Shown here piece by piece: positions 13,885-63,693 of a stretch of 64,000 nt of DNA. The DNA is taken from assembly GCF_014489635.1 (NCBI RefSeq), contig NZ_CP060828.1, positions 372,001 through 436,000 on the forward strand. Direction: 5' to 3'. The translations under genes were made by a program, and so were the position numbers. The stretch's first letter is position 1. Each line of letters begins with the position of its first letter. The notes beneath the pieces were generated by a model, which searched no databases, was not told the origin of the DNA, and saw only the letters and a program-made list of their open reading frames with translations. The stretch comes from Streptomyces roseirectus. GTDB lineage: Bacteria > Actinomycetota > Actinomycetes > Streptomycetales > Streptomycetaceae.

Positions 13885-13898
13885 GGGCCGAACGGCCC
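13885..13898. promoter_or_regulatory. OsdR/DosR-like palindromic box, hydrogenase operon
   Basis: GGGCCGAACGGCCC, about 37 bases before the endopeptidase ATG; a likely activator site for the hydrogenase operon. Confidence 0.6.
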
Positions 13899-13974
13899 GG
13901 GGGCGGTGGCCGGTGGTCCTGTGCGGTGCGGTGTCCGGGAAGGCGGACGTGCGCCTTCCGGCCGTCCGGGGGCC

Positions 13975-13992
13975 GAGGGCCGTACGGCCCTC
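13975..13992. promoter_or_regulatory. OsdR/DosR-like palindromic box (perfect 18-mer)
   Basis: GAGGGCCGTACGGCCCTC is a perfect palindrome, 128 bases from the hydrogenase operon start and about 211 from the ABC ATPase start. It may serve either direction. Confidence 0.6.
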
Positions 13993-14203
13993 CCGAACGC
14001 GCCGGTCGGCTCTCGCACACCGGGCGGGCCGCGCCGAGGCTGGGGACGGACCGAGGGCGCGGCGGTGTCGTCGACGCGGGCGCCCGCCGCCGGAGCAGGC
14101 CGACGATCCGCGGGCCTGTCTCCACGGGCCGCACGCCGTGCCGCGGCCGCGTTTCGCGCAGGAGGAAGAGAGCCACGTCTCGCTCGCGTCTTGAGGAGAT
14201 CTC

Positions 14204-15154
14204 ATGAACGTCCCTGTGCTCGACTGCTCCGGCCTGGTGCGGCGCTTCGGCGGACGCGCCGTCGTCGACGGTGTGAGCCTGAGCGTCGCGCCCGGTGAGA
14301 CGTACGGGCTGCTCGGGCCGAACGGCGCCGGGAAGACGACCACGATCAGAATGGTGTGCGGGCTGCTGCGTCCCGACGCGGGGACCGTGCACGTGGCGGG
14401 CCGGCCGGTGACCACGGCCGCGGGGCCCGCGAAACGGCTCATCGGCTTCGTCCCCCAGGACGTGGCCCTGTACCCGGACCTCAGTGTCCGGGAGAACCTC
14501 CGCTTCTTCGGCCGCCTGTACCGGCTGCCGCGCCGGGTCCGGGAACGGCGCGTCGACGAGGTCCTGGACCTCGTCGAACTGCGTGAGCGGGCCGGTGACC
14601 GGGTCGACTCGCTCTCCGGCGGCATGCGCAGACGGCTCAACATCGGCGCCGGGCTGGTGCACGCGCCGACGCTGCTGGTGCTGGACGAACCGACGGTCGG
14701 CGTCGATCCGCAGAGCCGGCACGCGATCATGGAGAGTGTCACCCGGTTCGGGCAGCAGGGCATGGCCGTCCTCTACACCACGCACTACATGGAGGAGGCC
14801 GAACGCCTCTGCGACCGCGTCGGCATCATCGACCGGGGCCGCCTCGTCGTGGAGGGCGCTCCACGCGAGTTGGTGTCGCTGGTGGCCGAGCGGGACCGGG
14901 TGCGGCTGACGGCCGTGGGGGACCTGGCGGCGTACACCGAGGCGTGCCGCGCGTTCGCGCGCGTCGGGGGCGTGGCCCGCACCGGTGAGCGCGGCGAGGT
15001 CGTGGAGCTGGTCGTGGAGGACGCCCGCAGTCTGCTGCCCGGCCTCATCGCGCTGGCCCACGACAACGGCGTCGACATCCGCGGTGTGGAGATCGACGAA
15101 CCCGATCTGGAGACGGTCTTCCTCCATCTGACCGGCACCGCCCTGAGGGAGTGA
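14204..15154 (+). CDS. ABC transporter ATP-binding protein (ABC-2 / DrrA type)
   Basis: 316 residues. Walker A GPNGAGKTT (about residue 40), Q-loop VPQDVALYPDLSVRENL, signature LSGGMRRRL, Walker B LLVLDEPTVGVDP, and switch histidine in TTHYMEEAERLCD. The C-terminal ~90 residues are the extra domain usual in ABC-2 exporter ATPases. It would power the two permeases encoded directly downstream (6 bases, then ATGA overlap). Substrate cannot be read from sequence; drug or lipid export is typical. Confidence 0.93.
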   Translation: MNVPVLDCSGLVRRFGGRAVVDGVSLSVAPGETYGLLGPNGAGKTTTIRMVCGLLRPDAGTVHVAGRPVTTAAGPAKRLIGFVPQDVALYPDLSVRENLRFFGRLYRLPRRVRERRVDEVLDLVELRERAGDRVDSLSGGMRRRLNIGAGLVHAPTLLVLDEPTVGVDPQSRHAIMESVTRFGQQGMAVLYTTHYMEEAERLCDRVGIIDRGRLVVEGAPRELVSLVAERDRVRLTAVGDLAAYTEACRAFARVGGVARTGERGEVVELVVEDARSLLPGLIALAHDNGVDIRGVEIDEPDLETVFLHLTGTALRE

Positions 15155-15160
15155 GCGCTC

Positions 15161-18386: not shown

Positions 18387-18710
18387 CGTCCGTCGCGGGC
18401 GGGCCGGCTGTTCCCGTCGCCGTGCGGGGAGGCGGCGACGGTCGCGGCCGGACGGGAGCGGCGCCGGAGGACGGGCAGCACCGGCCGTGAGAGGGCCGTT
18501 CGCCCCGCGGAACAGTCCGATCGGCCCTGCCGGGCAACCCCGTGTCGTGGTGATGGTGGGTGGGAAGCCGCCTTCCGGCGCGTGCGGCGCCGATGTCCGA
18601 GGGGTCCCGGTCGTGCGGACCGACCGAGCCGCTGGTTCCTCACCGCTCGGGGTGCGGCGGCACGTCCGTGCGTTCGTGCACCACGACTTCTCCCGAAGGG
18701 AGCGCGCACC
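18387..18710. other. Intergenic region before the DUF4389 gene
   Basis: 324 bases without a supportable gene. It holds two palindromic boxes (18493-18506, 18514-18528) in its middle third. Confidence 0.6.
18493..18528. promoter_or_regulatory. Two adjacent OsdR/DosR-like boxes
   Basis: GGGCCGTTCGCCCC at 18493-18506 and AGTCCGATCGGCCCT at 18514-18528, about 21 bases centre to centre (two helical turns), about 185 bases before the DUF4389 start. Confidence 0.5.
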
Positions 18711-20925: not shown

Positions 20926-20984
20926 GACGTGCCACCCTTCCGTTGACCGTCTCCAGCGTCCCGGCCCGCCGGGTCTGCCGGGTA

Positions 20985-20998
20985 GGGCCGAGCGGCCC
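20985..20998. promoter_or_regulatory. OsdR/DosR-like box before nitroreductase
   Basis: GGGCCGAGCGGCCC, about 59 bases upstream of the nitroreductase start. Confidence 0.6.
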
Positions 20999-21176
20999 GG
21001 TGTCAGGGCCCTCGCGGTCCCGCCCGTGCGACCGGGCGGCTGTACGGCCGGGCCTTCTCTCCGGTCCGGCTTCCGAACCGCACGGCATCGCGGCGGCCCG
21101 GTCCCACCGGCGCGCGGTCCCGTCGAGCACATGGGGCGGGCGTCCTTCTCGGGGCCGTCACCTCGGCGAGGCCGGC

Positions 21177-22299: not shown

Positions 22300-22483
22300 G
22301 GCGCTCCTCCTCTCGGCCGGCTCTCTCCAGACGACCACGGACCCGGGCCGCACCACAGGGGGCCGCCCGGTCCACCCCTGGTGCCGGACGGCCCCTGCCC
22401 CGCCCGGCGGGGGAACAGCACACTGGGCACAGTCCGCTTCCCAGGCCCACCGGCTCCGTGGCGCGGGGCGGGGAGGAGTACCG
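22071..22483. other. Divergent region between USP and second nitroreductase
   Basis: 413 bases. Besides the doubtful small frame (22299 downward) it contains a near-match box GGGCCGCCCGGTCC at 22360-22373 and a weaker TGCCGGACGGCCCC at 22382-22395, 22 bases apart, between divergent genes. Confidence 0.5.
22360..22395. promoter_or_regulatory. Paired OsdR/DosR-like boxes in divergent promoter
   Basis: GGGCCGCCCGGTCC and TGCCGGACGGCCCC, imperfect, 22 bases start to start, 89-124 bases before the nitroreductase start at 22484. Confidence 0.45.
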
Positions 22484-25872: not shown

Positions 25873-25948
25873 GGCAGCCTCCTCCCTGCCTCTCCAGCCA
25901 ACACCGCCCGCGGGGCGTGTCCCCAGTGCCGCACGGGCAGCGGAGGCT

Positions 25949-26005
25949 GGGCCGTACGGCCTCTCTCGTGAGGACCCGTCGCAGGGCGGGAGGGCCGTAC
26001 GCCCC
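25949..26005. promoter_or_regulatory. Two OsdR/DosR-like boxes in divergent promoter
   Basis: GGGCCGTACGGCCT (25949-25962) and GGGCCGTACGCCCC (25992-26005), 43 bases start to start (four helical turns), between the lipoprotein and flavodoxin genes; the second is 89 bases before the flavodoxin ATG. Confidence 0.55.
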
Positions 26006-26094
26006 GTACCGGGTCACGGCGGTGCGGGCCCAGGATCGGCACAGCGGCACACCGCGGCTCGTTCAGCCGCGTACACAGATGTCGAGGTGAGGAC

Positions 26095-30391: not shown

Positions 30392-30541
30392 ACGGTCCCG
30401 TTCCGCTCGCTCCTGTGCGGGCCGGTGCTCAGGATCGCGGCCGTGGCCGCAGCCGTCGTGATCTCCTCGGCCGTCTCGGGCCCGGGCCGGGTGAGGGTGC
30501 GGTGTCCCCGGCGGATTCCGTGCCGCCCGACCCCGGCGTCG

Positions 30542-30555
30542 GGGACGTTCGGCCC
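30542..30555. promoter_or_regulatory. OsdR/DosR-like box before por operon
   Basis: GGGACGTTCGGCCC, 63 bases before the porG start; a one-base variant of the box. Confidence 0.55.
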
Positions 30556-30618
30556 CTGAGACCCGGCCGGAGCGCACGGTAGGACTGAAACCACCGGCCC
30601 CGGCGGGAGGGAGTTGCC

Positions 30619-36487: not shown

Positions 36488-36493
36488 GGCCGC

Positions 36494-41801: not shown

Positions 41802-41836
41802 GGCGCCTCCTGCGTGCGGTTCTCCGGCGTGCCGGT

Positions 41837-45180: not shown

Positions 45181-45253
45181 GGCGTGTCCTCCCGGTGCGG
45201 GGGCGTACGACGGGCTGCTGCCAGCGTGTGCCCGCCCCGCGCGGCGCGGCCAT

Positions 45254-45328
45254 GGGCCGTTCGGTCCGCCGGCGCGCCGACCGGCACCCTCCCCGGACGG
45301 CGGCCCGGGTCAGGGCCGTTCGGCCCTG
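45254..45328. promoter_or_regulatory. OsdR/DosR-like boxes in divergent promoter
   Basis: GGGCCGTTCGGTCC (45254-45267) and the near-perfect CAGGGCCGTTCGGCCCTG (45311-45328) lie between the cNMP-binding (minus) and DoxX (plus) genes, 73 bases from one start and 100 from the other. The second is the best box in the window. Confidence 0.65.
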
Positions 45329-46043: not shown

Positions 46044-46052
46044 CTCCCGGAC

Positions 46053-46085
46053 GCGCGGTGGGCCCGCTCCCTCGGTCCACCGCGC
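46053..46085 (+). terminator. Possible stem-loop after DoxX gene
   Basis: Arms GCGCGGTGG / CCACCGCGC (9 bp) with a 15-base loop, beginning 10 bases after the DoxX stop. Weaker than the other terminators. Confidence 0.4.
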
Positions 46086-46115
46086 TCCCAACCCCCTTTC
46101 CCGGAGGTGGAAGAC

Positions 46116-46958: not shown

Positions 46959-46982
46959 CCGCCCCCCCCAAGGAGAACCCCC

Positions 46983-47819: not shown

Positions 47820-47837
47820 AACCCCCTGGAGCATCCG

Positions 47838-50195
47838 ATGTCCCACCTGTCCGACGACGAACTGCGTACCCTCGACGCCCACTGGCGGGCCGCCAACTAC
47901 CTCTCCGCCGGCCAGATCTACCTCCTGGCCAACCCCCTGCTGACCGAACCCCTCAGGCCCGAGCACATCAAGCCCCGGCTGCTGGGCCACTGGGGCACCT
48001 CGCCCGGCCTGACCCTCGTGTACACGCACCTCAACCGCGTCATCAAGGCGCGCGGTCTGGACGCGCTGTGCGTGTGGGGGCCGGGGCACGGGGGCCCGGC
48101 GGTGCTGGCGGGCTCCTGGCTGGAGGGCAGCTACGGCGAGACCTATCCCGACGTCTCCCGCGACGCGGCCGGCATGGAGCGCCTGTTCCGGCAGTTCTCC
48201 TTCCCGGGCGGGGTGCCGAGCCACGTCGCCCCGGAGACGCCGGGCTCGATCCACGAGGGCGGCGAGCTGGGCTACTCCCTCGCCCACGCCTACGGCGCCG
48301 CCTTCGACAACCCCGGTCTGCTGGTCGCGTGCGTGATCGGCGACGGTGAGGCGGAGACCGGTCCGCTGGCCGGGTCGTGGCACGCGAACAAGTTCCTCGA
48401 CCCGGCGCACGACGGCGCCGTCCTGCCGATCCTCCACCTCAACGGCTACAAGATCGCCAACCCGACGGTGCTGTCGCGGCTGCCCGAGTCCGAACTCGAC
48501 GACCTGCTGCGCGGCTACGGCCACCAGCCGATCCACGTCACCGGCGACGACCCGGCCGCCGTCCACCAGGCCCTGGCCGCGGCCATGGACGACGCCCTCG
48601 ACCGCATCGCGATCATGCAGGAGACGGCCCGTGAGGGCGGCGTCACCGAGCGCGTGCACTGGCCGGTGATCGTCCTGCGCACCCCCAAGGGCTGGACCGG
48701 TCCCGCCGAGGTGGACGGCGAGCCCGTCGAGGGCACCTGGCGCGCCCACCAGGTCCCGCTGGCCGGCGTCCGGGAGAACCCCGAGCACCTGCGGCAGCTG
48801 GAGGCGTGGCTGCGTTCCTACCGGCCGGACGAGCTGTTCGGTTCCGACGGCCGCCCCACCGCCGACGTTCTCGCCTGCGTCCCGGAGGGCACCCGACGAC
48901 TCGGCGCCAATCCCCACGCCAACGGCGGCCTTCTCACACGCGAACTGCCCCTGCCCGACCTGGACGAATTCGCCGTCCCCGTCGACAAACCCGGCACCAC
49001 CCTCCATGAACCCACGCGCGTGCTCGGTGACTTGCTCGCCCGCGTCATGCACGACACACGGCTGCGCCGGGACTTCCGCATCGTGGGACCCGACGAGACG
49101 GCTTCCAACCGCCTCCAGGCCGTCTTCGGCGCCAGCGGCAAGGCGTGGCAGGCCGCGCTGCTTCCGGTGGACGAGCATCTGGAGCGGCACGGGCGGGTGC
49201 TGGAGATCCTTTCCGAACACCTGTGCCAGGGCTGGCTGGAGGGGTATCTGCTGACCGGGCGGCACGGGCTGTTCTCCTGCTACGAGGCGTTCGTGCACAT
49301 CGTCGACTCGATGGTCAACCAGCACATCAAGTGGCTGAAGACGTCGCGGGAGCTGCCCTGGCGGGCGCCGATCGCCTCGTTGAACTACCTGCTGACGTCG
49401 CACGTGTGGCGCCAGGACCACAACGGCTTCTCCCACCAGGACCCGGGTTTCGTGGACCACGTCCTCAACAAGAGCCCCGAGGTCGTGCGGGTGTACCTGC
49501 CGCCGGACGCCAACACGCTGCTGTCGGTGGCCGACCACGCGCTGCGCAGCCGTGACCACGTCAACGTGATCGTGGCGGGCAAGCAGCCCTGCTTCGACTG
49601 GCTGTCGCTGGACCAGGCCCGCGCCCACTGCGCGCGCGGCGCCGGGATCTGGGACTGGGCGGGCACGGAGAGCGGGGGCGCGCCGGACGTCGTGCTCGCC
49701 TGCGCGGGCGACGTGCCGACCCAGGAGGTGCTGGCCGCCGCCCAGTTGCTGCGCCGGCACCTGCCCTCCCTGGCCGTGCGGGTGGTCAACGTGGTCGACA
49801 TGACGCGCCTGCTGCCGCGCGAGGAACACCCGCACGGGATGAGCGACTTCGAGTACGACGGCCTGTTCACCGCGGACCGGCCGGTGATCTTCGCCTACCA
49901 CGGCTACCCCTGGCTCATCCACCGCCTCGCCTACCGGCGCACCGGCCACGCCCAGCTGCATGTGCGCGGCTACAAGGAGTCGGGGACCACGACCACGCCC
50001 TTCGACATGGTCGTCCGCAACGACCTCGACCGCTTCCGCCTGGTCATGGACGTCATCGACCGCGTCCCCGGCCTCGCCGTGCGCGCGGCGGCCGTGCGCC
50101 AGCAGATGGCCGACGCCCGCACCCGCCACCACGCCTGGATCCGCGAGCACGGCACCGACCTGCCGGAGATCGCGGACTGGACCTGGACCGCCTGA
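47838..50195 (+). CDS. xfp: Phosphoketolase (xylulose-5-phosphate/fructose-6-phosphate)
   Basis: 785 residues, the usual Xfp size. It converts xylulose-5-P or fructose-6-P plus phosphate into acetyl phosphate and an aldose phosphate. Visible motifs are the N-terminal [54 protein letters not shown], the ThDP-Mg site [37 protein letters not shown] and a C-terminal half with [20 protein letters not shown] and [17 protein letters not shown]. Placement between two USPs and GAPDH in a hypoxia island suggests a fermentative shunt to acetyl phosphate and ATP or acetyl-CoA. Confidence 0.96.
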
Positions 50196-50228
50196 GCATC
50201 CACGACCCGAGTGAAGGAGTTCACCGTC

Positions 50229-51224
50229 ATGACCGTACGTGTCGGTATCAACGGCTTCGGCCGGATCGGCCGCACCTATCTGCGCGCGGCTCTGGAGCGC
50301 GGTGAGGGTGTCGAGGTCGTCGCCGTCAACGACGTCGCCCCCGCCGCCACCCTGGCCCATCTCCTGGAGTTCGACTCGACGTTCGGGCGTCTGGGGCGGG
50401 AGGTGCGGCACGACGAAGGGTCGGTCACCGTGGACGGCCGGCGCATCGCCGTCACCGCCGAACGCGATCCGGCCGCGCTGCGCTGGGGAGAGCTGGGCGT
50501 CGACGTCGTGATCGAGTCCACCGGCCGTTTCCGCGACCGTGACTCGGCCGCCCTGCACCTGAAGGCGGGGGCCCGCAGCGTGCTGCTGTCCGCGCCGGGC
50601 AAGGGCGTGGACGCGACCTTGGTGGTCGGTGTCAACCACACCGCCTTCGACCGTGCGCACGACCGGATCGTGTCGGCCGCGTCCTGCACCACCAACTGTG
50701 TCGCGCCGATGGTGAAGGTCCTCGACGACGCGTTCGGCGTCGAGCGCGGGATGCTCACCACCGTGCACGGCTACACCAACGACCAGGCGTTGATCGACGG
50801 CCCGCACAAGGACCTGCGCCGGGCCCGTTCCGCCGCCCTCAGCATCATCCCGACCGGCACGGGTGCCGCCCGCGCGGTGGGCCTGGTGCTGCCGGAGCTC
50901 GCCGGGACGCTGGACGGGATCGCGGTGCGGGTGCCGGTGGAGGACGGCTCGCTCACCGACCTGACGGTGGTCCTGAACCGTCCGGTGACGCGGGACGAGG
51001 TCAACGAGGCGTTCGAGGCGGCGGCCGAGGGCCCGCTGCGCGGCGTCCTGCGGGTCTCGCACGCCCCGATCGTCTCCCGCGACGTGATCGGCGACCCCGC
51101 CTCCTGTGTCTTCGACCCGGCGCTGACCCAGGTGGGCGGCACGCTGGCGAAGGTCTTCGGCTGGTACGACAACGAGTGGGGCTACACCAACCGGCTGCTG
51201 GACCTCACCCTCCTGATGGCCTGA
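50229..51224 (+). CDS. gap: Glyceraldehyde-3-phosphate dehydrogenase
   Basis: 331 residues. GINGFGRIGRTYLRAA dinucleotide site, VNDVAPAATLAHLLEFDSTF (Asp favouring NAD), catalytic cysteine in SAASCTTNCVAPMVKV, ESTGRF and the closing WYDNEWGYTNRLLDL. A full-length, probably second, GAPDH of the cell: it would catch triose phosphate produced by the phosphoketolase immediately upstream. AAGGAG precedes the ATG; 33 bases separate it from xfp. Confidence 0.95.
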   Translation: MTVRVGINGFGRIGRTYLRAALERGEGVEVVAVNDVAPAATLAHLLEFDSTFGRLGREVRHDEGSVTVDGRRIAVTAERDPAALRWGELGVDVVIESTGRFRDRDSAALHLKAGARSVLLSAPGKGVDATLVVGVNHTAFDRAHDRIVSAASCTTNCVAPMVKVLDDAFGVERGMLTTVHGYTNDQALIDGPHKDLRRARSAALSIIPTGTGAARAVGLVLPELAGTLDGIAVRVPVEDGSLTDLTVVLNRPVTRDEVNEAFEAAAEGPLRGVLRVSHAPIVSRDVIGDPASCVFDPALTQVGGTLAKVFGWYDNEWGYTNRLLDLTLLMA

Positions 51225-51246
51225 CCGTTCCCGAAGGAGTGCTCCG

Positions 51247-53943
51247 ATGACGGACGACCTGCTCGACCGTGCCCCCGCGCACGTGCTGCTCGCGGACGGC
51301 ACCACCGCGTGCGTGAGGCCCGTGCTCCCCGGCGACCACGACCAGGTGGAGGGGCTGTACGAGGAGATGTCGCCGGAGAACCTGCGGCTGAGGTTCTTCT
51401 CCCCGTGCCGGCGTTCGGCCGCCCTGGCCGCCGACCGGGCCTGCGCGCCGGCCCGCCCCGGCTACCGGGCCCTGCTCGCCGAGGTGCGCGGGCAGGTCCT
51501 CGGGATCGCCGAGTACGACACCGGCGGGGACGGTGACCGGGCGGAGATCTCGATCGCCGTCGCCGAGGGGATCCACGGCCGGGGTGTGGGGACCCTGCTC
51601 GTCGAGCACCTGGTGTCGGCGGCCCGCGCGGACGGGGTCACGGTCTTCACGGCGGACGCGCTCAGCGAGAACCGTGAGGTGCTGCGGCTCTTCGCCGACC
51701 TGGGCCTGCGCACCTCGCGCCGGTTCGAGGGCCCCGAGGTGCGGTGCGTGATCCGGCTGGACGAGGACGACGCCTATCTGAGGGCCGTCGAGGAGCGCGG
51801 CAGGCGCGCCGACGTGGCGAGTCTGCGTCCGCTGCTGCGCCCCCGGGCGGTCGCCGTCGTCGGTGCGGGGCGCACCCCGGGCTCGGTGGGCCGGGCGGTC
51901 CTGCACCACCTGCACACCGGCGGTTTCGCGCACCGCCTGTTCGCCGTGAACCCGAGCGTGACCTCGGTCCTCGGCGTGCCGTCGTACCCGGCGGTGAGCG
52001 TCCTGCCGCAGCCTCCCGACCTGGTGGTCGTGGCGGTGCCCGCGGCGGCGGTCGCGGCGACGGCCGAGGAGTGCGGCAAGGCCGGGGTGCGGGCGCTCGT
52101 CGTGGTCTCCTCGGGGCTGGACGCCGACCAGGCCAGGGGTCTGCTGGCGGCCTGCCGGACGTACGGGATGCGGCTGGTGGGGCCCAACTGCCTGGGTGTC
52201 GTCAACGCCGATCCCGCGCTGTGCCTCGACGCCACGTTCGCCGCCCGCCACCCGCTGCCCGGGGCCGCCGGGATCGCGGTGCAGTCCGGCGGGGTGGGCA
52301 TCGCGCTGCTCGACGGGATGTCGCGGCTGGGCATCGGGGTGTCGTCGTTCGTGTCGCTGGGCGACAAGTACGACGTCAGCGGCAACGACCTGCTCCAGTG
52401 GTGGGAGGACGACGGACGTACCGCCCTGGCCGTGCTGCACCTGGAGTCCTTCGGGAACCCGCGCGCGTTCTCCCGCACCGCCCGCCGGGTCACCCGCCGG
52501 ATCCCGGTGCTGACGGTGGACGCGGGGCGCACCGAGGCGGGCCGGCGGGCCGCCGCCTCGCACACCGCCGCCGCGGCCACGCCCACCATGACCCGGCAGG
52601 CGCTGTTCACCCAGGCCGGGATCACGGCGACCCGCTCGGTCGGCGAACTTCTGGAGACCGCGGCCCTGCTGTACTCCCAGCCGCTGCCCGAGGGGGCGCG
52701 GGTGGCGGTCGTCACCAACGCGGGCGGGGCCGGGGTGCTGGCCGCCGACGCCTGTGTGGAGGCGGGGCTCGTCCTGCCGTCCCTGTCCGGGGCCGTGCTC
52801 GAAGGGCTGCCGCGGGGCGTCGCGGCCGGGAACCCGGTCGACGCCACGGCCGCGGTGTCGGAGGCCCAGCTGGCCGAGTGCGTCGAGCGGGTCCTGGCGT
52901 CCGGGGGCGTCGACGCCGTGCTGGTCGCCCTGGTGCCGACCGCCGTGGCCGCCGCGACCGGCGACGACCTGGTCCGTGCCCTCACCTCGGGGCCGGGCCG
53001 CCGGGCCAAGCCGGTGCTCGCCGTGCGTCTGGAACAGGACGTGCCGGTCAGGCTGCTGCCCGCCGCCGGCGGCGGCACCGTCCCGTCGTACGCCGAACCG
53101 CAGGCGGCGGCCCGCGCGCTGGCCCACGCGGCCGGCCGGGCGGCCTGGCTGGCGCGGCCCGCCGGTGTCGTGCCGGAGCTGGACGACGTCGGCGCGGCGG
53201 ACACCGCGCGGGCGCACGGTGTGGTCGACGCGTGGCTGGCCGCGCATCCGGACGGGGGCTGGCTCGACCCGCGGACCTGCGCCGATCTCCTGGCTTGCTA
53301 CGGCGTGCCGCTGATCCCGTGGGCCTGGGCCGAGACGGAGGACGAGGCGGTGTGCGCGGCGGAGCGGCTGCGCGGGGCCGACGGGCGGGTGGTCCTGAAG
53401 GCGCACTGGCCGGGGCTGGTCCACAAGAGCGCGCAGGGGGCCGTCCGGCTCGACCTGCGCGGCGACCGCCAGGTGCGGGCCGCCTTCCGGGAGCTGGCGG
53501 AGCGTTTCGACGGGCAGCTGACCGGCGTGCTGGTGCAGGCGCTGGCCGGCCGGGGCACCGAGCTGTTCGCGGGCGTCGTCCAGGACGGGGTCTTCGGCCC
53601 GCTCGTCCTGTTCGGCCTCGGCGGGACGGCCACGGACGTACTCGCCGACCACGCGGCGCGGCTCGCCCCACTCACCGACCACGACGTGCACGACCTGATG
53701 ACGTCGCCGCGCTGCGCGCCGCTGCTGTTCGGCACGGACGGCGAGGGCCCGGTGGCGCTGGAGGAGCTGGAACGGCTGCTCCAGCGGCTGTCGCGGATGG
53801 CGGCCGACCTGCCGCGGCTCGTGGAGGCCGACCTGAACCCGGTCCTCGCCACGCCGGACGGCGTGACCGCTCTCGACGCCCGGATCCGGCTGCTGCCGCA
53901 CCGGGCCCACGACCCCTTCCTGCGCCGGCTGCGCGGGGACTGA
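51247..53943 (+). CDS. GNAT acetyltransferase fused to ADP-forming acyl-CoA synthetase
   Basis: 898 residues. N-terminal GNAT domain (about 18-180: VRPVLPGDHDQVEGLYEEMS, EISIAVAEGIHGRGVGTLLV) then CoA-binding domain (about 200-320: VAVVGAGRTPGSVGRAVLHH), succinyl-CoA ligase-like middle (SLGDKYDVSGNDLLQWWEDD, AGRRAAASHTAAAATPTMTR with the active-site histidine of the family) and a C-terminal ATP-grasp domain (DPRTCADLLACYGVPLIPWA, RVVLKAHWPGLVHKSAQGAV). This is the Pat-type lysine acetyltransferase / acyl-CoA synthetase fusion. Only 22 bases after gap, it fits the acetyl-CoA/acetate/ATP node and protein acetylation under stress. Confidence 0.93.
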   Translation: MTDDLLDRAPAHVLLADGTTACVRPVLPGDHDQVEGLYEEMSPENLRLRFFSPCRRSAALAADRACAPARPGYRALLAEVRGQVLGIAEYDTGGDGDRAEISIAVAEGIHGRGVGTLLVEHLVSAARADGVTVFTADALSENREVLRLFADLGLRTSRRFEGPEVRCVIRLDEDDAYLRAVEERGRRADVASLRPLLRPRAVAVVGAGRTPGSVGRAVLHHLHTGGFAHRLFAVNPSVTSVLGVPSYPAVSVLPQPPDLVVVAVPAAAVAATAEECGKAGVRALVVVSSGLDADQARGLLAACRTYGMRLVGPNCLGVVNADPALCLDATFAARHPLPGAAGIAVQSGGVGIALLDGMSRLGIGVSSFVSLGDKYDVSGNDLLQWWEDDGRTALAVLHLESFGNPRAFSRTARRVTRRIPVLTVDAGRTEAGRRAAASHTAAAATPTMTRQALFTQAGITATRSVGELLETAALLYSQPLPEGARVAVVTNAGGAGVLAADACVEAGLVLPSLSGAVLEGLPRGVAAGNPVDATAAVSEAQLAECVERVLASGGVDAVLVALVPTAVAAATGDDLVRALTSGPGRRAKPVLAVRLEQDVPVRLLPAAGGGTVPSYAEPQAAARALAHAAGRAAWLARPAGVVPELDDVGAADTARAHGVVDAWLAAHPDGGWLDPRTCADLLACYGVPLIPWAWAETEDEAVCAAERLRGADGRVVLKAHWPGLVHKSAQGAVRLDLRGDRQVRAAFRELAERFDGQLTGVLVQALAGRGTELFAGVVQDGVFGPLVLFGLGGTATDVLADHAARLAPLTDHDVHDLMTSPRCAPLLFGTDGEGPVALEELERLLQRLSRMAADLPRLVEADLNPVLATPDGVTALDARIRLLPHRAHDPFLRRLRGD

Positions 53944-53956
53944 GGAGGCATCGGAG

Positions 53957-54610
53957 ATGAACGACGGAAAAGTGGGCTCCGTGATGACGGCGGACGTCGT
54001 CCACGCCCTGCCCGGCACCCCGTTCAAGGAGGTCGCGCGGCTGCTCGCCGACCACCGGATCAGCGGGCTGCCGGTACTGGACGACGACGACAAGGTTCTC
54101 GGGGTGGTCTCCGAGACGGACCTGATGGCACGCCAGGCGGCTCCGGGGCCGGAGCGTCCGGCGCGGCGTACCCGGGCGAAGCGTCGGCAGGCCACCAAGG
54201 TGGCCGCTCGCACCGCCGGGCAGCTGATGTCCGGGCCCGCGGTCACCGTGCACGCCGACGACACCATCGCCGAGGCCGCCCGCACCATGGCGGAGCGGCA
54301 TGTCGCGCGGCTGCCCGTCGTCGACGTGGAGGAGCGGCTGGTCGGCATCGTCACCCGGGGCGACCTGCTGCGGGTGTTCCTGCTGCCCGACGCGCAGTTG
54401 CGTGCCCAGGTGATCGAGCAGGTCCTGACACGGGGTCTGTGGCTGCCGGCGGGCTGCGTCGAGGTCTTCGTGACGGAGGGGGTCGTCACGCTCAGCGGAC
54501 ACCTGGACAACCCGGGTGACCGGGAGATCGCCGTCTCCATGACCCGGCGCCTCGACGGCGTCGTCGATGTCGTGGACCGGCTCCATGTGCGCCGGGGAGG
54601 TGCGTCATGA
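53957..54610 (+). CDS. CBS-BON domain protein
   Basis: 217 residues: CBS 1 (VGSVMTADVVHALPGTPFKE, GLPVLDDDDKVLGVVSETDL), CBS 2 (QLMSGPAVTVHADDTIAEAA, ARLPVVDVEERLVGIVTRGD), and BON (VEVFVTEGVVTLSGHLDNPG, LDGVVDVVDRLHVRRGG). GAGGAGG 7 bases before the ATG; 13 bases after the acyl-CoA synthetase gene, so likely in that operon. Confidence 0.9.
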   Translation: MNDGKVGSVMTADVVHALPGTPFKEVARLLADHRISGLPVLDDDDKVLGVVSETDLMARQAAPGPERPARRTRAKRRQATKVAARTAGQLMSGPAVTVHADDTIAEAARTMAERHVARLPVVDVEERLVGIVTRGDLLRVFLLPDAQLRAQVIEQVLTRGLWLPAGCVEVFVTEGVVTLSGHLDNPGDREIAVSMTRRLDGVVDVVDRLHVRRGGAS

Positions 54611-55098
54611 CCGTGTTGATCGTCTACGGCACCACCAACGGGTCGACGGCGCGCATCGCCGAGGCGGTCGCCGCCGGCCTGCGTGAGCGCGGTCTGGCCG
54701 TCGAGACCCGCGCCGCCGGTTCCGTGACCGACGTGACGCGGTACGAGGCCGTCGTGGTCGGCGGCGCGCTGTATGCCGGGCGCTGGCACCGTGACGCGCG
54801 CCGTTTCGTGCGCCGGCACCGGTGGGCCCTCGTGCGGCGGCCCCTGTGGCTCTTCAGCAGCGGGCCGCTGGACGCCTCCGCCGGTGAGCGGGACATTCCG
54901 CCCGTGCGTGGGGTGCGGCGCGCGATGGTCTCGCTGGACGCGCGCGGGCACGTCACCTTCGGCGGCTGTCTGGAGGAGGGGGCCCGGGGCTGGGTGGCCG
55001 GGCGGATCCTGGCCGCCGGGAAGGGCGGGGACTTCCGGGACTTCGACGCGGTCGGGGCGTGGGCCGGGCGGGTCGCGGAGGAACTGGCGGCCGACTGA
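54607..55098 (+). CDS. Flavodoxin-domain protein
   Basis: 163 residues. FMN loop VYGTTNGSTARIAEAVAAGL (residues 6-25), VVVGGALYAGRWHRDARRFV, LWLFSSGPLD. Paralogous to the flavodoxin at 26095. ATGA overlap with the CBS-BON gene, so the last gene of the gap-acs-CBS-fld operon. It converges on a USP gene with only 11 bases between. Confidence 0.88.
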   Translation: MTVLIVYGTTNGSTARIAEAVAAGLRERGLAVETRAAGSVTDVTRYEAVVVGGALYAGRWHRDARRFVRRHRWALVRRPLWLFSSGPLDASAGERDIPPVRGVRRAMVSLDARGHVTFGGCLEEGARGWVAGRILAAGKGGDFRDFDAVGAWAGRVAEELAAD

Positions 55099-56425: not shown

Positions 56426-56534
56426 CGGTCCGCACCTCCCGGGGGTCGTGACGTCATGTCGACGGTGGCAGCCCGGGGCGGTCCCGTGCAGGGGCCGGAC
56501 AGGTGCCCCGGCGGGCCGACTCGCCCTGCCGGAA

Positions 56535-56548
56535 GGGCCGTTCAGCCC
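56535..56548. promoter_or_regulatory. OsdR/DosR-like box before Rv1733c-like gene
   Basis: GGGCCGTTCAGCCC, directly abutting the STAS gene stop, 109 bases before the Rv1733c-like start. Confidence 0.5.
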
Positions 56549-56905
56549 TCACCGGGCCGCCGTCGCGGCCGGCTGCGGGATCACCTCGAACGCGCCCGCC
56601 AGTCCGGCGTGCCGCAGCAGCCGTGTGAACCCGGCGCCGGGACCGGCCAGCCGCAGCCGCCCGCCGCCGGCCAGTACCCGGCCGCGTGCCCGGCACAGCA
56701 GGCCGAGGCCGCAGCAGTCGACGAAGGTGACGGGCCGCAGGTCCAGCACCACGTCGGGGCGCGGGCCGCAGGTCAGGTCGTCGAGGGCGGGTCCGAGGGC
56801 GATGACCGCCAGGAGGTCCAGGTCGCCGCCGAGCGTGACGACGGTCGTGCCGTCGTCGGTCCGCGCCGTGCGCAGCGTCGCGGACCTCGTGTGCTTGTCG
56901 TCCAT
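56549..56905 (-). CDS. STAS-domain anti-sigma factor antagonist
   Basis: 118 residues. TTVVTLGGDLDLLAVIALGP (about 19-38), DVVLDLRPVTFVDCCGLGLL (about 52-71) with the expected acceptor position occupied by a cysteine region (VDCCGL rather than VDSSGL), then LRLAGPGAGFTRLLRHAGL. STAS antagonists bind anti-sigma kinases and are switched by serine phosphorylation; loss of the acceptor serine would make this one constitutively active or non-switchable. GAGGGGC before the ATG. A divergent USP lies upstream. Confidence 0.85.
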   Translation of the reverse strand: MDDKHTRSATLRTARTDDGTTVVTLGGDLDLLAVIALGPALDDLTCGPRPDVVLDLRPVTFVDCCGLGLLCRARGRVLAGGGRLRLAGPGAGFTRLLRHAGLAGAFEVIPQPAATAAR

Positions 56906-56942
56906 GCCCCTCAGCCAAGCCCGCCGGGCACGCGGGCGGTAA

Positions 56943-57042
56943 GGGCCGTTCGAACCACGCGCGCCGTGTTCGAGCGGGCCCGAACGGCCCCGGCGGCACC
57001 CGCCGCCCGGTACGGCCGATCCCTGGTGGGACCGACGGTCCC
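56943..57042. promoter_or_regulatory. Three OsdR/DosR-like boxes between STAS and USP
   Basis: GGGCCGTTCGAACC (56943-56956), GGCCCGAACGGCCC (56977-56990) and GGGACCGACGGTCCC (57028-57042). Distances: 37 bases to the STAS start; 77 bases to the USP start. Confidence 0.6.
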
Positions 57043-58346: not shown

Positions 58347-58429
58347 CGTTGTCCGTGAGTCGGTGGAGGGAGCGGCACCAGTGTGCCCGCGGAGCGGCCC
58401 CGGCGCTGGTGCCATTGGTCCCGGCTCCG

Positions 58430-58443
58430 GGGCCGGTCGGCCC
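58430..58443. promoter_or_regulatory. OsdR/DosR-like box before PPOX gene
   Basis: GGGCCGGTCGGCCC, adjacent to the stop of the HPF-like gene, 83 bases before the PPOX start. Confidence 0.6.
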
Positions 58444-58444
58444 T

Positions 58445-58780
58445 TCATGTCCCGGCGTCCGTGCGCCACGGGGGCGGGGTGTGCGTCCTGGGGCGGGCGG
58501 CCCGTGCCGTCACCTGGTCCGCCAGCCGGGCGGCGGCCTGCCAGGCGGTGGCCGCCGTCACGTGGACGACCGTGAAGGACCCGGCGACCAGGAGTACGGC
58601 GGTCACCGACCAGGGCCGGTCGGTCCGGGAGACCTTCGCCCTGCTGACGGTCAGTGTGCCCTCGGCGGCCGGGGCGCCGGCGCGTGCGCAGGCCGCGTCG
58701 AGCTTCGCGAGGACATGGGCGACGGCTTCCTCGCCCACCTCGCCCCGGGTCCGCACCCTCAGGCCGTCACGTGTCGTCAT
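58445..58780 (-). CDS. HPF/RaiA-like ribosome hibernation factor, short
   Basis: 111 residues. VRTRGEVGEEAVAHVLAKLD, AACARAGAPAAEGTLTVSRA, PWSVTAVLLVAGSFTVVHVT and ATAWQAAARLADQVTARAAR follow the beta-alpha-beta-beta-beta-alpha pattern of the HPF/S30AE fold, with the ribosome dimerisation tail absent. In mycobacteria a DosR-controlled ribosome-associated factor (RafH/HPF-like) serves hypoxic ribosome stabilisation; the role here is an inference. Low overall sequence similarity leaves the assignment moderate. Confidence 0.65.
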   Translation of the reverse strand: MTTRDGLRVRTRGEVGEEAVAHVLAKLDAACARAGAPAAEGTLTVSRAKVSRTDRPWSVTAVLLVAGSFTVVHVTAATAWQAAARLADQVTARAARPRTHTPPPWRTDAGT

Positions 58781-58873
58781 GTTCGTCGCCCCTTCTGGTC
58801 GCCGTGGGTTTCGTGCGGTTCCAGCGTCCTGCGGCGGACGGCGGTGGCGCAGGTGCCGTCGGTCCCGGTCCCG

Positions 58874-58887
58874 AGGCCGGTCGGCCC
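58874..58887. promoter_or_regulatory. OsdR/DosR-like box between HPF-like and kinase genes
   Basis: AGGCCGGTCGGCCC, 93 bases before the HPF-like start and 110 before the kinase start. Confidence 0.5.
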
Positions 58888-58997
58888 TGCCCTCGGAGGT
58901 GGACGACTTGGCCCGTTCTCGGTGTCCTGCCAGGGCATCGCCCACTACCGTGGGCCCTGACCGGATGAGCCGGGTGCGCGGATGTCGAGGAGTGCGG

Positions 58998-60689
58998 GTG
59001 GGAAGTCCCGAGGAGGCCCGGGTACGGTTGCCTCAGCTGCGGCTGGACGAGTTGCTGGAGGAGCTGCAGGCACGGCTGGACGCCGCCCGGGGCACCCGGG
59101 ACCGGGTGCACAGCCTGTTGGAGGCGGTGCTGTCGGTCGGCCGGGAACTCGACCTGGAACAGGCCCTGTTCAGCATCGTCGAGGCGGCGGCGGCCCTGGT
59201 GGACGCCGAGTACGCGGCGCTCGGTGTGATCGGCCCCGACGGCCGGCGGCTGTCGGCGTTCCACACGATCGGGGTGAGCGCGGAGCAGATCGCGAGGATC
59301 GGCCCGTATCCGGAGGGGCACGGCATCCTGGGCGAGCTGATCCACCACCCGGAGCCGCTGCGCCTGGCGAAGATCTCCGACCACCCCGCCTCCTACGGTT
59401 TCCCGCCGCACCATCCGCCCATGAACACCTTCCTCGGTGTCCCGATCCGGGTGCGTGAGCAGGTGTTCGGGAATCTCTACCTGACCGAGAAGCGCGGCGG
59501 CGCCCAGTTCGACGAGGAGGACGTCTCCGTGACGGCGACCCTCGCGGTCGCGGCCGGGGTGGCGATCGACAACGCCCGGCTGTACGCGGAGTCCCGGCTG
59601 CGGGAGCGCTGGCTGGGGGCGAACACGGAGATCACGCACCGGCTGATGTCGGGCGGCGGGCAGAGCGAGGTGCTGGGGCTGATCGCCGAGCGGGCCCGTG
59701 ACATCACGGGGTCCGCGCTGGCCGTCGTCGCCATGCCGATGGAGGACACCGGGTCGTTCACCGTGGAGCTGGCGCTGGGGCGGGAGGCCGATGCCCTGCG
59801 CGGTCTCGTGCTGCCCGCCGAGGGGGGTCCGATCGGTGCCGCGTTCACCCGGGGAGCGGCCGTCACCAGCGCGGAGCGGCTGTCGCTGGTGCCGTCGCTC
59901 GGCCCGTCGGTGGCGGTGCCCGTCGGGACCGGCGCCGACGGGGTGCGCGGGGTGCTGCTGCTGGTCCGGGAGGCGGGCCGGGTGGCGTTCACGGACAAGG
60001 AGATCGAACCCCTCCAGGTCTTCGCCGCGCAGGCGGCCATCGCGATGGAGCTGGCCGAGCGGCGGCGCGACGCCGAGGAGATCGCCGTCCTCAAGGACCG
60101 GGACCGGATCGCCCGCGACCTGCACGACCTCGCCATCCAACGCCTCTTCGCGACGGGGATGACCCTCCAGAGCGCCGGCCGGTTCATCGAGCACTCCGAG
60201 GCGTCGGAGCGGGTGCTGCGGGCGGTGGACGACCTCGACGAGACCATCAAGCTGATCCGTTCGACGATCTTCGGCCTCCAGACCCGGGAGGGCACCACCG
60301 GCACCGGTCTGCGCGCCCGCGCGGTCCGGGTGGCCGGCGAGGCCGCTGTGGCGCTCGGGTTCGCGCCGGGTTTCCGCATGGAGGGGCTGATCGACACGGA
60401 CGTCCCGAAGGAGGTCGCGGACCATGTGGTCGCGGTGCTGTCCGAGGCCCTGACGAACGTCGCCCGGCACGCCCGCGCCACCGGCGCCGAGGTCTCCCTG
60501 GCCACCGACGGGCGCGAGCTGGTCCTCACCGTCCGCGACGACGGCGTCGGCATCCCGGCACAGGGGCGGCGCAGCGGGCTGCGGAACATGGCGGAGCGGG
60601 CGCGGGAGCTCGGCGGGCGGCTGGAGTGGGAGTGCCCGGACGGGGGCGGGACGACGCTGGTGTGGCGGGTGCCGGTGAGCGCCGCGTAG
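58998..60689 (+). CDS. osdK: OsdK/DevS-like dual-GAF histidine kinase
   Basis: 563 residues. GAF-A (about 50-200) ends in the heme-pocket sequence ASYGFPPHHPPMNTFLGVPI, where the double histidine (138/139) corresponds to the heme ligand of DosS/DosT; YLTEKRGGAQFDEEDVSVTA follows. GAF-B (about 210-350) is less conserved. HisKA_3 has DRDRIARDLHDLAIQRLFAT (phospho-His376) and a HATPase_c domain with EALTNVARHARATGAEVSLA and VRDDGVGIPAQGR. It should sense oxygen or redox state through heme and phosphorylate the OsdR-like regulator. GTG 58998 is chosen by GAGGAG 5 bases upstream; ATG 58965 would add 11 residues. Confidence 0.9.
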   Translation: MGSPEEARVRLPQLRLDELLEELQARLDAARGTRDRVHSLLEAVLSVGRELDLEQALFSIVEAAAALVDAEYAALGVIGPDGRRLSAFHTIGVSAEQIARIGPYPEGHGILGELIHHPEPLRLAKISDHPASYGFPPHHPPMNTFLGVPIRVREQVFGNLYLTEKRGGAQFDEEDVSVTATLAVAAGVAIDNARLYAESRLRERWLGANTEITHRLMSGGGQSEVLGLIAERARDITGSALAVVAMPMEDTGSFTVELALGREADALRGLVLPAEGGPIGAAFTRGAAVTSAERLSLVPSLGPSVAVPVGTGADGVRGVLLLVREAGRVAFTDKEIEPLQVFAAQAAIAMELAERRRDAEEIAVLKDRDRIARDLHDLAIQRLFATGMTLQSAGRFIEHSEASERVLRAVDDLDETIKLIRSTIFGLQTREGTTGTGLRARAVRVAGEAAVALGFAPGFRMEGLIDTDVPKEVADHVVAVLSEALTNVARHARATGAEVSLATDGRELVLTVRDDGVGIPAQGRRSGLRNMAERARELGGRLEWECPDGGGTTLVWRVPVSAA

Positions 60690-60695: not shown

Positions 60696-60711
60696 GGGGC
60701 CGACCGGCCCC
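60696..60711. promoter_or_regulatory. OsdR/DosR-like box before Hsp20-like gene
   Basis: GGGGCCGACCGGCCCC, immediately after the kinase stop and 82 bases before the Hsp20-like start. Confidence 0.6.
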
Positions 60712-60793
60712 CGGGGCAGGGACGGTCGGCTCACTGCCGCGCGAACCCTCTTACGTCACGCTGGAGTTGACGGACAGAGAGAGGAGGAAGCGC

Positions 60794-61849: not shown

Positions 61850-61936
61850 GGGTTCCTCCGGGAACGCGGCCTGTCCTGTGGGTCCAGCATCGGCGCGGGC
61901 GCTCACGGGGGACACGGGTCTCGCGGCCCCGAGGGC

Positions 61937-61950
61937 GGGCCGTTCGGCCC
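61937..61950. promoter_or_regulatory. OsdR/DosR-like box within a larger inverted repeat
   Basis: GGGCCGTTCGGCCC, between divergent genes (87 and 106 bases from starts). It is embedded in CCCCGAGGG ... CCCTCGGGG arms (61927-61935, 61948-61956). Confidence 0.6.
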
Positions 61951-62056
61951 TCGGGGCCGGGGCCGTCTCGCGAGCCGTTCGCCCCATGTACCGCGCTTCG
62001 TACGGGAGTTCGCTGAGAGTGAGAGGAAAGGGCCCCGACGAGGAAGGGCGAGGACC

Positions 62057-62289: not shown

Positions 62290-62718
62290 CTACGGATGGG
62301 CGGACACCATGACCACCGGCACCCGGGCATGCCGCAGGCACTCCCGGGCGACCGGACCGCCCGCGGGCAGTTCGCCGCACCCGTGCGCGGAGCGCCCCAC
62401 GGCGAGGAGGACGGCCCCGCGGGCCCGCTCCAGCAGCGCCTGCGCGGGCGCCCCCTCCACCAGAACAGGGCGCACGGCGACGTCGACGCGTTCGCCCAGT
62501 GTCTTGACGAGGCTCTCCTCCAGGACACGCGCGGCCTCCGCCCGCTGCTGCGCGGCCGTCGGACGGTCCGCCACCGGGGCGTAGGGCGCGAGACCGGCCG
62601 GCTCCCAGGCAAGGACGGCGACCACCCGCGCGTGCAGCAGGCGGGCGTGTCCGGCCGCCCAGCGCAGGGCGGCCAGGGACGCCTCGGAGCCGTCGACGCC
62701 CACCACGATGTCGGTCAT
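62290..62718 (-). CDS. Universal stress protein, single UspA domain
   Basis: 142 residues, the only complete single-domain USP here. DIVVGVDGSEASLAALRWAA, LEESLVKTLGERVDVAVRPV, then VLLAVGRSAHGCGELPAGGP and VPVVMVSAHP. The loop replaces the usual G-x2-G-x9-G with a variant, so ATP binding is uncertain. Its ATG overlaps the stop of a 40-codon gene upstream (ATGA), making a two-gene unit. Confidence 0.88.
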   Translation of the reverse strand: MTDIVVGVDGSEASLAALRWAAGHARLLHARVVAVLAWEPAGLAPYAPVADRPTAAQQRAEAARVLEESLVKTLGERVDVAVRPVLVEGAPAQALLERARGAVLLAVGRSAHGCGELPAGGPVARECLRHARVPVVMVSAHP

Positions 62719-62837
62719 GTCCGGTGTCCGTGGTGGTTGCCGAAGTCGCCGGAGTCATCGGAGTCGTCGGAGTAGTCGGATTCGAACATCACGCACACGC
62801 CCACGAGGATCACTCCGACGAGGATCAGTGCGGCCAC
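62715..62837 (-). CDS. 40-residue membrane microprotein coupled to USP
   Basis: GTG at 62835-62837 with AAAGGGG 7 bases upstream. The first half AALILVGVILVGVCVMF is a membrane helix; the second half is acidic and serine-rich (ESDYSDDSDDSGD) and ends GNHHGHRT with a histidine cluster. Its TGA lies in the ATGA that starts the USP. The SD sequence, the helix, the biased second half and the overlap make a real gene likely although it is short. No family recognised. Confidence 0.6.
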   Translation of the reverse strand: MAALILVGVILVGVCVMFESDYSDDSDDSGDFGNHHGHRT

Positions 62838-62885
62838 GATCGTTCCCCTTTCTGTGTTCCGAGCGTCCCGCGGTCCGCGCGCGGC

Positions 62886-63593
62886 TCAGAGCTTCCGCAG
62901 CCAGTCGTCGGCCACGCCGTGCAGGGCCTGTTCGGCGGGCCGCAGGCGGGTGTCGTCCGTCCGGTAGGTGAGGTGGTCGACGACGTCCACGACACCGTCG
63001 AGCCGGCGGGTCATGCCGACCGCGATGGGGATCTCACTGCGCCGCTCCAGCCGTCCGGTGAGGAAGACGACGCCGTCGCGTACCGCGACGTCGATGGTCT
63101 GCGGGACCAGCCACAGGGTCTCCAGGAGGACCTCCTGCCGCACGGCGCGCAGGATCTCGGCGTCCGGGCGCAGGAAGACGTGGAGCAGGTCCCGGCGGGT
63201 GACGATGCCCGCGAGCCGCATCTCCTCGTCCACGACGGGCAGGCGTTCGACGCCGTGGGCGGCCATGAGCCGGGCGGCCTCGGTGACGGTGGCGTCGGCG
63301 CGTACGGTGACGGCGGGCGTCGACATGATGCCGCCGGCGCTGCGTGCCCGGCTCTTCGCCTCGGCGTGCCGGGCGCGGGCGCTGAGGTGGTGGCGCACGC
63401 CGGGCCGGCGCGTCTGGTGCGAGATGAGATCGGTCCCGGAGATCACGCCGATCACCTTGCCGTCCTCGTCGACCACCGGAAGGCCGCCGATGCGGTGCTC
63501 GTCGAGCAGGCGCACCACCTCTTTGAACGGGGTCCCGTACTCGGCGGTGACCACCCCATGGGTCATGAGGGCGCCGACCTTCATGGGCTTCAT
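62886..63593 (-). CDS. CBS-BON domain protein
   Basis: 235 residues: CBS 1 (VGALMTHGVVTAEYGTPFKE, GLPVVDEDGKVIGVISGTDL), a basic linker RRPGVRHHLSARARHAEAKS, CBS 2 (GIMSTPAVTVRADATVTEAA, ERLPVVDEEMRLAGIVTRRD), BON (IDVAVRDGVVFLTGRLERRS, RLDGVVDVVDHLTYRTDDT). AAGGAGG 7 bases before the ATG. Of the four CBS-BON proteins this is the closest in its layout to the one at 53957. Confidence 0.9.
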   Translation of the reverse strand: MKPMKVGALMTHGVVTAEYGTPFKEVVRLLDEHRIGGLPVVDEDGKVIGVISGTDLISHQTRRPGVRHHLSARARHAEAKSRARSAGGIMSTPAVTVRADATVTEAARLMAAHGVERLPVVDEEMRLAGIVTRRDLLHVFLRPDAEILRAVRQEVLLETLWLVPQTIDVAVRDGVVFLTGRLERRSEIPIAVGMTRRLDGVVDVVDHLTYRTDDTRLRPAEQALHGVADDWLRKL

Positions 63594-63679
63594 GTCCGAG
63601 CCTCCTTCGCACTCTGCCCGCGGCCCGTCCTGCCGCGGGCTCCGGTTCCAGGTTCCGTCGTGGGGGTCCGGGTCCGCAG

Positions 63680-63693
63680 AGGCCGGTCGGTCC
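63680..63693. promoter_or_regulatory. OsdR/DosR-like box between CBS and USP genes
   Basis: AGGCCGGTCGGTCC, 86 bases from the CBS-BON start and 87 from the USP start at 63781, centred between divergent genes; a further AGGCCCGGTGGGCCCT at 63700-63715 is a weak neighbour. Confidence 0.5.

Follow-up and report, generated by a model that had tools for sequence, protein, structure and literature searches.

The window analyzed here is a 64,000-nt stretch of the 9.95-Mb chromosome of Streptomyces roseirectus (G000:C1:372001-436000; GC content 74%), in which a 16-bp palindromic box recurs in front of genes for a response regulator, a sensor kinase, a [NiFe] hydrogenase, a pyruvate:ferredoxin oxidoreductase-like enzyme (por), universal stress proteins (USPs), and other proteins. 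In the window, 62 genes were called by our own small codon-usage script, so their starts are approximate, and 60 of them were scanned with Pfam. A sequence-only reading of this DNA had proposed that the box marks a candidate regulon of the local two-component system and that its geometry fits an activator of the DevR/OsdR type. As described below, this candidate is a regulon of a published type, that of OsdR in Streptomyces coelicolor and Streptomyces lividans, and part of its target set is new.

Distribution and geometry of the palindromic boxes

Boxes were scored with a symmetric matrix derived solely from the 25 S. coelicolor OsdR sites printed in Table 1 of PMC5069765, which avoids circularity. 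Each of the 16 box positions listed in the sequence-only reading carries a site by this measure, with scores ranging from 9.5 to 21.7 and with the boxes at 42749 and 63680 representing the weak members of tandem pairs; further boxes were missing from that list, notably those at 10794, 22380, 25991, 45253, 58612, and 58873. The matrix also finds sites preceding the regulator, hydrogenase, por, USP, nitroreductase, pyridoxamine-phosphate-oxidase (PPOX)-like, Hsp20, and CBS-BON genes, as had been proposed. The window box equals the OsdR consensus published in PMC5069765, AGGGCCGATCGGCCCT; that paper also examined a variant of it by electrophoretic mobility shift assay.

Matrix-based counting, the check suggested alongside the regulon proposal, revealed 26.5 intergenic sites per 10 kb of spacer with a score of at least 11 in the window versus 0.23 in control DNA, which was drawn from elsewhere on the chromosome as 28 spaced segments of 20 kb (560 kb in total). 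The underlying counts are 20 intergenic sites, accompanied by 6 coding sites, in the window, and 2 intergenic sites, accompanied by 10 coding sites, in the control. The boxes had been described as intergenic, which holds for these 20 sites and fails for the box at 43984, which by the gene calls used here overlaps the stop codon and final codons of the CBS-BON gene upstream of it. For comparison, we used 80 loci encoding the best of 554 relatives of the regulator, a set in which several genomes are counted twice, one row is titled only Actinobacteria, Kitasatospora and Actinacidiphila are few, and S. coelicolor (SCO0204) is absent among the named loci. Across these loci, sites scoring at least 11 reach a density of 12.5 per 10 kb in spacers versus 0.39 per 10 kb in coding DNA. 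The exact sequence GGGCCGNNCGGCCC is found at 28 places in the 9.95-Mb chromosome, 10 of them inside the window. Its central pair is A or T in all 12 exact sites lying between 361 and 442 kb, and among the 16 exact sites elsewhere on the chromosome, 6 have an A or T center and 10 have G or C only.

The high GC content of the window lends itself to a structural explanation, in which the palindromes represent terminator hairpins, repeat elements, or GC-rich background. Loosely defined matches are in keeping with this idea: with up to two mismatches allowed, the consensus yields 99 window matches versus a shuffle mean of 68.6 (standard deviation 8.8, largest 90; none of 100 shuffles reaching 99), so most of these matches are expected by chance, and this manner of counting was set aside as too noisy. 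The pair at 19755/19778 (19755-19793), which accounts for one of the 20 intergenic sites, consists of two GC-rich palindromes, each the exact reverse complement of the other, and is flanked by convergent genes, and for these reasons it is probably a terminator hairpin rather than an operator. For all other boxes, a terminator or repeat origin was rejected on the basis of their enrichment and their conservation before orthologous genes. Dinucleotide shuffles of the window spacers gave a mean of 0.58 sites scoring at least 11 and a maximum of 3 (100 shuffles), none of 300 column-permuted matrices reached 20 window sites, and the boxes lie before start codons. The structural explanation is thus already largely refuted, and we regard it as scarcely credible for the array.

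The distance from box center to the nearest start, given as 40-110 bases in the sequence-only reading, is mostly 44-140 bp; the boxes at 18492/18513 (18493 in its list) are an exception, lying about 200 bp from the next called start. The reported tandem arrangement at about 22 bases is evident in six window pairs spaced by 21-23 bp (score at least 8), one of them being 19755/19778. At 120 related loci, comprising the 80 regulator loci and 40 hydrogenase loci with some genomes or stretches represented repeatedly, 118 site pairs (score at least 9) are separated by less than 70 bp, and 54 of these have a spacing of 20-23 bp, which corresponds to two helical turns. Such tandem use is expected, because DevR of Mycobacterium tuberculosis occupies primary and adjacent secondary sites cooperatively (PMC3029386). 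Among 223 control genes with a real spacer, 5 have an upstream box scoring at least 8 and none has one scoring at least 11. Far from the island, two further boxes 23 bp apart (G000:C1:3040760 and 3040783; L125:10760 and 10783) lie just past a GH18 gene and before a 70-aa open reading frame (ORF).

Regulator and sensor kinase

The best solved relative of the regulator is DevR (3c3w, 253 bits), with the next solved protein scoring 140 bits. Residues D65, K194, K197, and N198 align with DevR D54, K179, K182, and N183, with the phospho-acceptor D65 falling on the DevR segment LDVRLPDG; K179, K182, and N183 are the base-reading contacts of DevR (PMC5999986). The regulator is 95% identical to a protein of Streptomyces niveiscabiei, and a box lies upstream of the regulator gene in 72 of the 80 related loci at a score of at least 8 and in 69 at a score of at least 11. 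The match of the box to the OsdR consensus, the kinship with DevR, the retained K-K-N residues, and these upstream boxes bear out the DevR/OsdR assignment of the sequence-only reading. We consider membership of the local regulator in this class to be well supported, and its binding to the boxes is predicted accordingly from sequence.

The sensor kinase is related to DevS and DosT. Its first GAF domain matches DevS GAF structures as well as 2vzw (DosT) and retains the HPP-motif histidine (His139), presumably the heme ligand. The kinase is the only full-length relative in its own genome. Its counterpart is found within the fetched DNA at 50 of the 80 related loci, and directly downstream of the regulator gene on the same strand at 1 of 80. 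In S. coelicolor, osdR and osdK form one operon; this is a feature of that species, and membership in the binding class does not depend on it. A second DevS-like kinase with an adjoining NarL-type regulator is encoded at G000:C1:7308086-7309841, and an exact palindrome with a CG center is present at 7310991.

Boxes associated with a [NiFe] hydrogenase operon

The hydrogenase operon encodes large, small, Fe-S, and NAD(P)-binding subunits and carries the L1 and L2 cysteine motifs, which is the set expected of a group 3b enzyme; the closest NCBIfam models are those of sulfhydrogenase subunits, all of which score below cut-off. At 40 other Streptomyces loci, taken out of 60 further matches, a box precedes the Fe-S subunit gene in 23, a box precedes hycI in 17 of 31, and at least one of the two boxes is present in 27 of 40. 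The boxes are concentrated among close relatives (19 of the 19 closest loci versus 8 of the 21 more distant ones), and none of 60 permuted matrices matched the Fe-S counts. In S. roseirectus the Fe-S gene box resides inside hypC. This in-gene box is probably functional, as judged from the conservation of a box before the Fe-S gene even at loci where hypC does not adjoin it.

In the wider phylum, a site occurs within 300 bp of the Fe-S gene in 8 of 30 loci (own included) at a score of at least 8 and in 5 at a score of at least 11, with two loci (L255 and L265) offering only 88 and 29 bp upstream. Five same-class genomes (family f3) lack a box in the 300 bp preceding the Fe-S gene, and the notion that the hydrogenase box is common to the wider phylum was dropped as too thin to claim. 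Four distant genomes of the same phylum (L248, L260, L268, and L269) carry sites scoring at least 11 before the Fe-S gene, and independent DevR control of the hydrogenase is possible in these cases. Hydrogenase 3 of Mycobacterium smegmatis, a group 3b enzyme, is reported to be linked to hypoxia and DosR. The S. roseirectus enzyme resembles it in type, although shared control was not reproduced before the Fe-S gene in the five f3 genomes.

Pyruvate formate-lyase and other candidate targets

The array extends beyond the window, with boxes as far as 361 kb (about 11 kb to the left) and 442 kb (6 kb to the right) of the chromosome. On the left flank are genes for a USP and a sulfate permease, followed by pyruvate formate-lyase (PFL) with its activase, divergent from a flavin oxidoreductase gene. 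On the right flank are genes for pyruvate phosphate dikinase (PPDK), an MFS transporter, and a NarG-like nitrate reductase subunit, similar to the surroundings of osdR in S. coelicolor. The PFL scores 1126.5 bits with TIGR01255 (cut-off 994.2) and possesses the glycyl loop RVSGYAV at 722 and CC at 414, and the activase scores 301.2 with TIGR02493 (cut-off 231.75).

PFL was found in 109 of 295 sampled Streptomyces genomes. Among the 30 best PFL loci (own included), a site lies 30-180 bp upstream in 26 at a score of at least 8 and in 24 at a score of at least 11, compared with shuffle means of 1.1 and 0.3 and with permuted-matrix means of 1.8 and 0.4 (best 25 and 10). PFL occurs together with the hydrogenase in 35 of 58 versus 74 of 237 genomes, and with the regulator in 96 of 109 versus 112 of 186 (Fisher tests that ignore phylogeny, on sets counted by eye). 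The two genes are within 10 kb of each other in 13 of the 61 genomes holding both a PFL and an OsdR-type gene among the matches listed, six short PFL fragment matches being excluded.

A putative PFL gene adjoins osdR in S. lividans (SCO0206 equivalent) and rises together with it, from 0 to 74 transcripts per million, in a protein-secreting strain, and the osdR-correlated group in the same table includes nar, USP, PPOX-like, nitroreductase, CBS, PPDK, alcohol dehydrogenase, and putative PFL genes (PMC6302529, Table 2). Annotation of that species marks the PFL activase as a fragment and a putative pseudogene, and low oxygen could not be confirmed as the trigger (PMC6302529). The rise of PFL with osdR supports the mechanism proposed below. 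Because of this co-expression, the association of PFL with OsdR is not new; what the present analysis adds is its box, its genus-wide spread, and its pairing with an activase that, like the PFL itself, scores as complete, unlike the S. lividans fragment.

The por operon is rare, being present in 9 of the 295 genomes, and its best NCBIfam models are PorA/PorB, below cut-off. A box is located 68-76 bp upstream at 7 of the 9 Streptomyces por loci (own included). The phosphoketolase gene lies in a run of genes behind the near-perfect box at 45312, and we infer that this run (45429..55098), like the oppositely oriented genes at 35081..42658, forms a single operon. The former run includes a gene (window 51247-53943) in which a GNAT domain is fused to an NDP-forming acyl-CoA synthetase with an SHT motif, a domain order that resembles that of Streptomyces PatA-type protein acetyltransferases. 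Acetylation of DosR K182 blocks DNA binding (PMC5999986), and by analogy it is conceivable that this protein feeds back on the regulator. Beside the box-bearing genes, the interval at window 26687-30182 encodes two proteins, one with a Trypco2 domain and the other, of 1066 aa, matching AAA and TPR weakly; as far as seen, both are unrelated to the regulon.

Table 1. Boxes and genes at the S. roseirectus locus, in window coordinates except where chromosome coordinates are given
Position	Strand	Feature	Distance to start	Score	Basis or remark
43215..43916	-	OsdR/DevR-type response regulator, REC + LuxR/GerE helix-turn-helix, 233 aa			Pfam, PDB
58998..60689	+	DevS/DosT-type sensor kinase, GAF-GAF-HisKA_3-HATPase			Pfam, PDB
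4472..13847	-	[NiFe] hydrogenase operon, hycI-hypF-hypC-FeS-NAD(P)-small-large-hypD-hypE			Pfam; RVCGIC and DPCISC motifs
30619..35027	+	Pyruvate:ferredoxin oxidoreductase-like operon (gamma, alpha, beta) and GltD-type flavoprotein			Pfam, NCBIfam
35081..42658	-	PntB, PntA parts, alcohol dehydrogenase, aldehyde dehydrogenase, unknown protein, USP			Co-directional, downstream of tandem boxes
45429..55098	+	204-aa membrane protein, USP, USP, phosphoketolase, glyceraldehyde-3-phosphate dehydrogenase, GNAT-acyl-CoA synthetase fusion, CBS-BON, flavodoxin			Pfam
G000:C1:363554-365806 (L120:11554-13806)		Canonical PFL with adjacent activase, 6 kb left of window	101 bp (box)
10794..10809		Box inside hypC, before hydrogenase Fe-S subunit gene	80 bp	16.3
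13884..13899		Box before hycI, first hydrogenase operon gene	44 bp	16.3
13976..13991		Second hycI box	136 bp	21.1
18492..18528		Tandem boxes (18492/18513), 21 bp apart, before DUF4389 gene	about 200 bp		Called start
20984..20999		Box before nitroreductase-family gene (-)	66 bp		Pfam
22380..22395		Box before nitroreductase-family gene (+)	96 bp		Pfam
25948..26006		Two boxes (25948, 25991) before flavodoxin-domain gene 26095 (+)			Pfam
30541..30556		Box before por operon	70 bp	16.6
42748..42785		Tandem boxes, 22 bp apart, before USP-led minus-strand genes
43983..43998		Box before regulator gene		18.3	Overlaps end of CBS-BON gene
45253..45268		Box between cNMP-binding gene (-) and 204-aa gene (+)		11.1
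45312..45327		Near-perfect box before 45429 gene	109 bp	21.7
56512..56549		Tandem boxes, 22 bp apart, before 189-aa membrane protein			Rv1733c-like in sequence-only reading; no Pfam match
56942..56991		Boxes 56942 and 56976 between divergent STAS (-) and USP (+) genes		8.7, 14.1
58429..58444		Box before PPOX-like gene (-)	90 bp		Pfam
58612..58627		Box within doubtful 111-aa ORF		13.3
58873..58888		Box before sensor kinase gene	117 bp	15.5
60696..60733		Tandem boxes, 22 bp apart, before Hsp20 gene (+)			Pfam
61936..61951		Box between CBS-BON (-) and small ORF (+)		18.3
63679..63715		Tandem boxes, 21 bp apart, between CBS-BON (-) and USP (+)			Pfam

Discussion

We propose, with a probability of about 0.87, that the boxes are OsdR/DevR operators of a hypoxic regulon that includes a fermentation module. 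According to this proposal, low oxygen, nitric oxide, or carbon monoxide would lead the GAF-domain kinase (58998) to phosphorylate the regulator (43215). Dimers of the phosphorylated regulator would bind the 16-bp palindrome, often joined by a second dimer on the same DNA face at a distance of two helical turns, and would activate rather than repress the downstream genes, the regulator gene included. The regulon would cover USPs, Hsp20, CBS-BON proteins, nitroreductases, and nitrate reductase, as well as a hypoxic carbon and electron module composed of PFL with its activase, por, phosphoketolase, alcohol and aldehyde dehydrogenases, transhydrogenase, and the 3b-like [NiFe] hydrogenase.

Several observations weigh against this proposal. 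A distance of 15 kb separates the regulator gene from the kinase gene, unlike in the osdR-osdK operon. Neither hydrogenase box is present at 13 of the 40 loci, 1 of 60 permuted matrices matched the hycI count at a score of at least 11, and the box is missing at 2 of the 9 por loci. For PFL, the best permuted matrix reached 25 loci at a score of at least 8 versus the observed 26, and a second PFL group (70-77% identity) has sites at 16 of 40 loci at a score of at least 8 and at 7 of 40 at a score of at least 11. Two PFL genomes (G019 and G093) have no regulator match at the cut-off, yet carry a site scoring at least 11, and box presence and regulator presence are imperfectly coupled. The transhydrogenase arm lacks support in S. 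lividans, because expression of pntA and pntB there is negligible in the reference and producing strains alike (PMC6302529).

A paralogue with 61% identity to the regulator (G000 4744641-4745288) retains both the K-K-N residues and the EKTxKN recognition motif, and it could share or own the sites. In such a scenario, the boxes would be real operators read by this paralogue, either alone or jointly with the local regulator. In its favor, there are 127 regulator matches in the S. roseirectus genome (fragments included) and two to five close copies in some genomes. The sites cluster about the local regulator gene, however, and the matrix scan found no site scoring at least 9 in a 20-kb stretch surrounding the paralogue gene. 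Of the three base-reading residues, at least one is missing from each of the six other paralogues that were compared. We consider reading of the boxes by the paralogue, alone or jointly, to be improbable.

The sites might also be genuine OsdR sites serving a response that is mainly developmental or redox in nature, with the hydrogenase and other fermentation genes as minor or unresponsive targets. This possibility draws on S. lividans producing a foreign protein, in which the regulon rose and low oxygen was unconfirmed as the cause (PMC6302529). In the same data, however, PFL rose together with osdR, and divergent relatives keep boxes ahead of their PFL, por, and hydrogenase genes. Moreover, oxygen-labile enzymes would presumably be useful only at low oxygen. 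A mainly developmental or redox role is on balance unlikely, although it is the strongest of the competing explanations.

The proposed hypoxic regulon resembles the DevR/DosR-DevS/DosT system of M. tuberculosis in its related regulator and GAF kinase, in its core DNA-contact residues, and in its USP- and Hsp20-type targets, and differs from it in target set, organism, and lifestyle and in a box that is GC-shifted relative to the mycobacterial form. Paired boxes are a further shared trait, the primary and secondary boxes of M. tuberculosis being bound cooperatively (PMC3029386). With OsdR/OsdK of S. coelicolor and S. lividans it has in common the 16-bp consensus, an autoregulated regulator gene, and USP, nitroreductase, PPOX-like, PPDK, and nitrate reductase targets near that gene, together with, in S. 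lividans, a co-expressed putative PFL beside osdR and an alcohol dehydrogenase (PMC5069765; PMC6302529). Hydrogenase, por, and phosphoketolase appear in neither Table 1 of PMC5069765 nor Table 2 of PMC6302529, and PFL is absent from the former. Listings from the open-access literature yielded no link of OsdR to hydrogenase, por, or phosphoketolase, the latter two being named in no listing. As far as seen in these target tables and literature listings, three candidate targets (hydrogenase, por, and phosphoketolase) are new, and so is the conserved hydrogenase box inside hypC.

Streptomyces are usually described as obligately aerobic. We consider it about as likely as not that much of the genus possesses an anaerobic energy program under OsdR control, consisting of PFL and, in a subset, por, phosphoketolase, and an NADP(H)-type hydrogenase. 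If so, these enzymes would be switched on jointly once oxygen is gone, with formate, acetate, and H2 as products, and the cells would survive by fermentation, beyond dormancy or nitrate reduction alone. Hypoxic induction and fermentative flux are predicted, and the claim that hypoxic Streptomyces ferment and make formate or H2 under OsdR is a testable one. The target set and geometry described here (a 16-bp box, 20-23 bp tandems, and positions mostly 44-140 bp before the start) can be transferred to the re-reading of other Streptomyces genomes, and the isolated PFL-osdR observation in S. lividans gains a genus-wide frame. A known dormancy-type regulator would in this manner be linked, in a genus considered aerobic, with oxygen-labile enzymes of fermentation and hydrogen metabolism.

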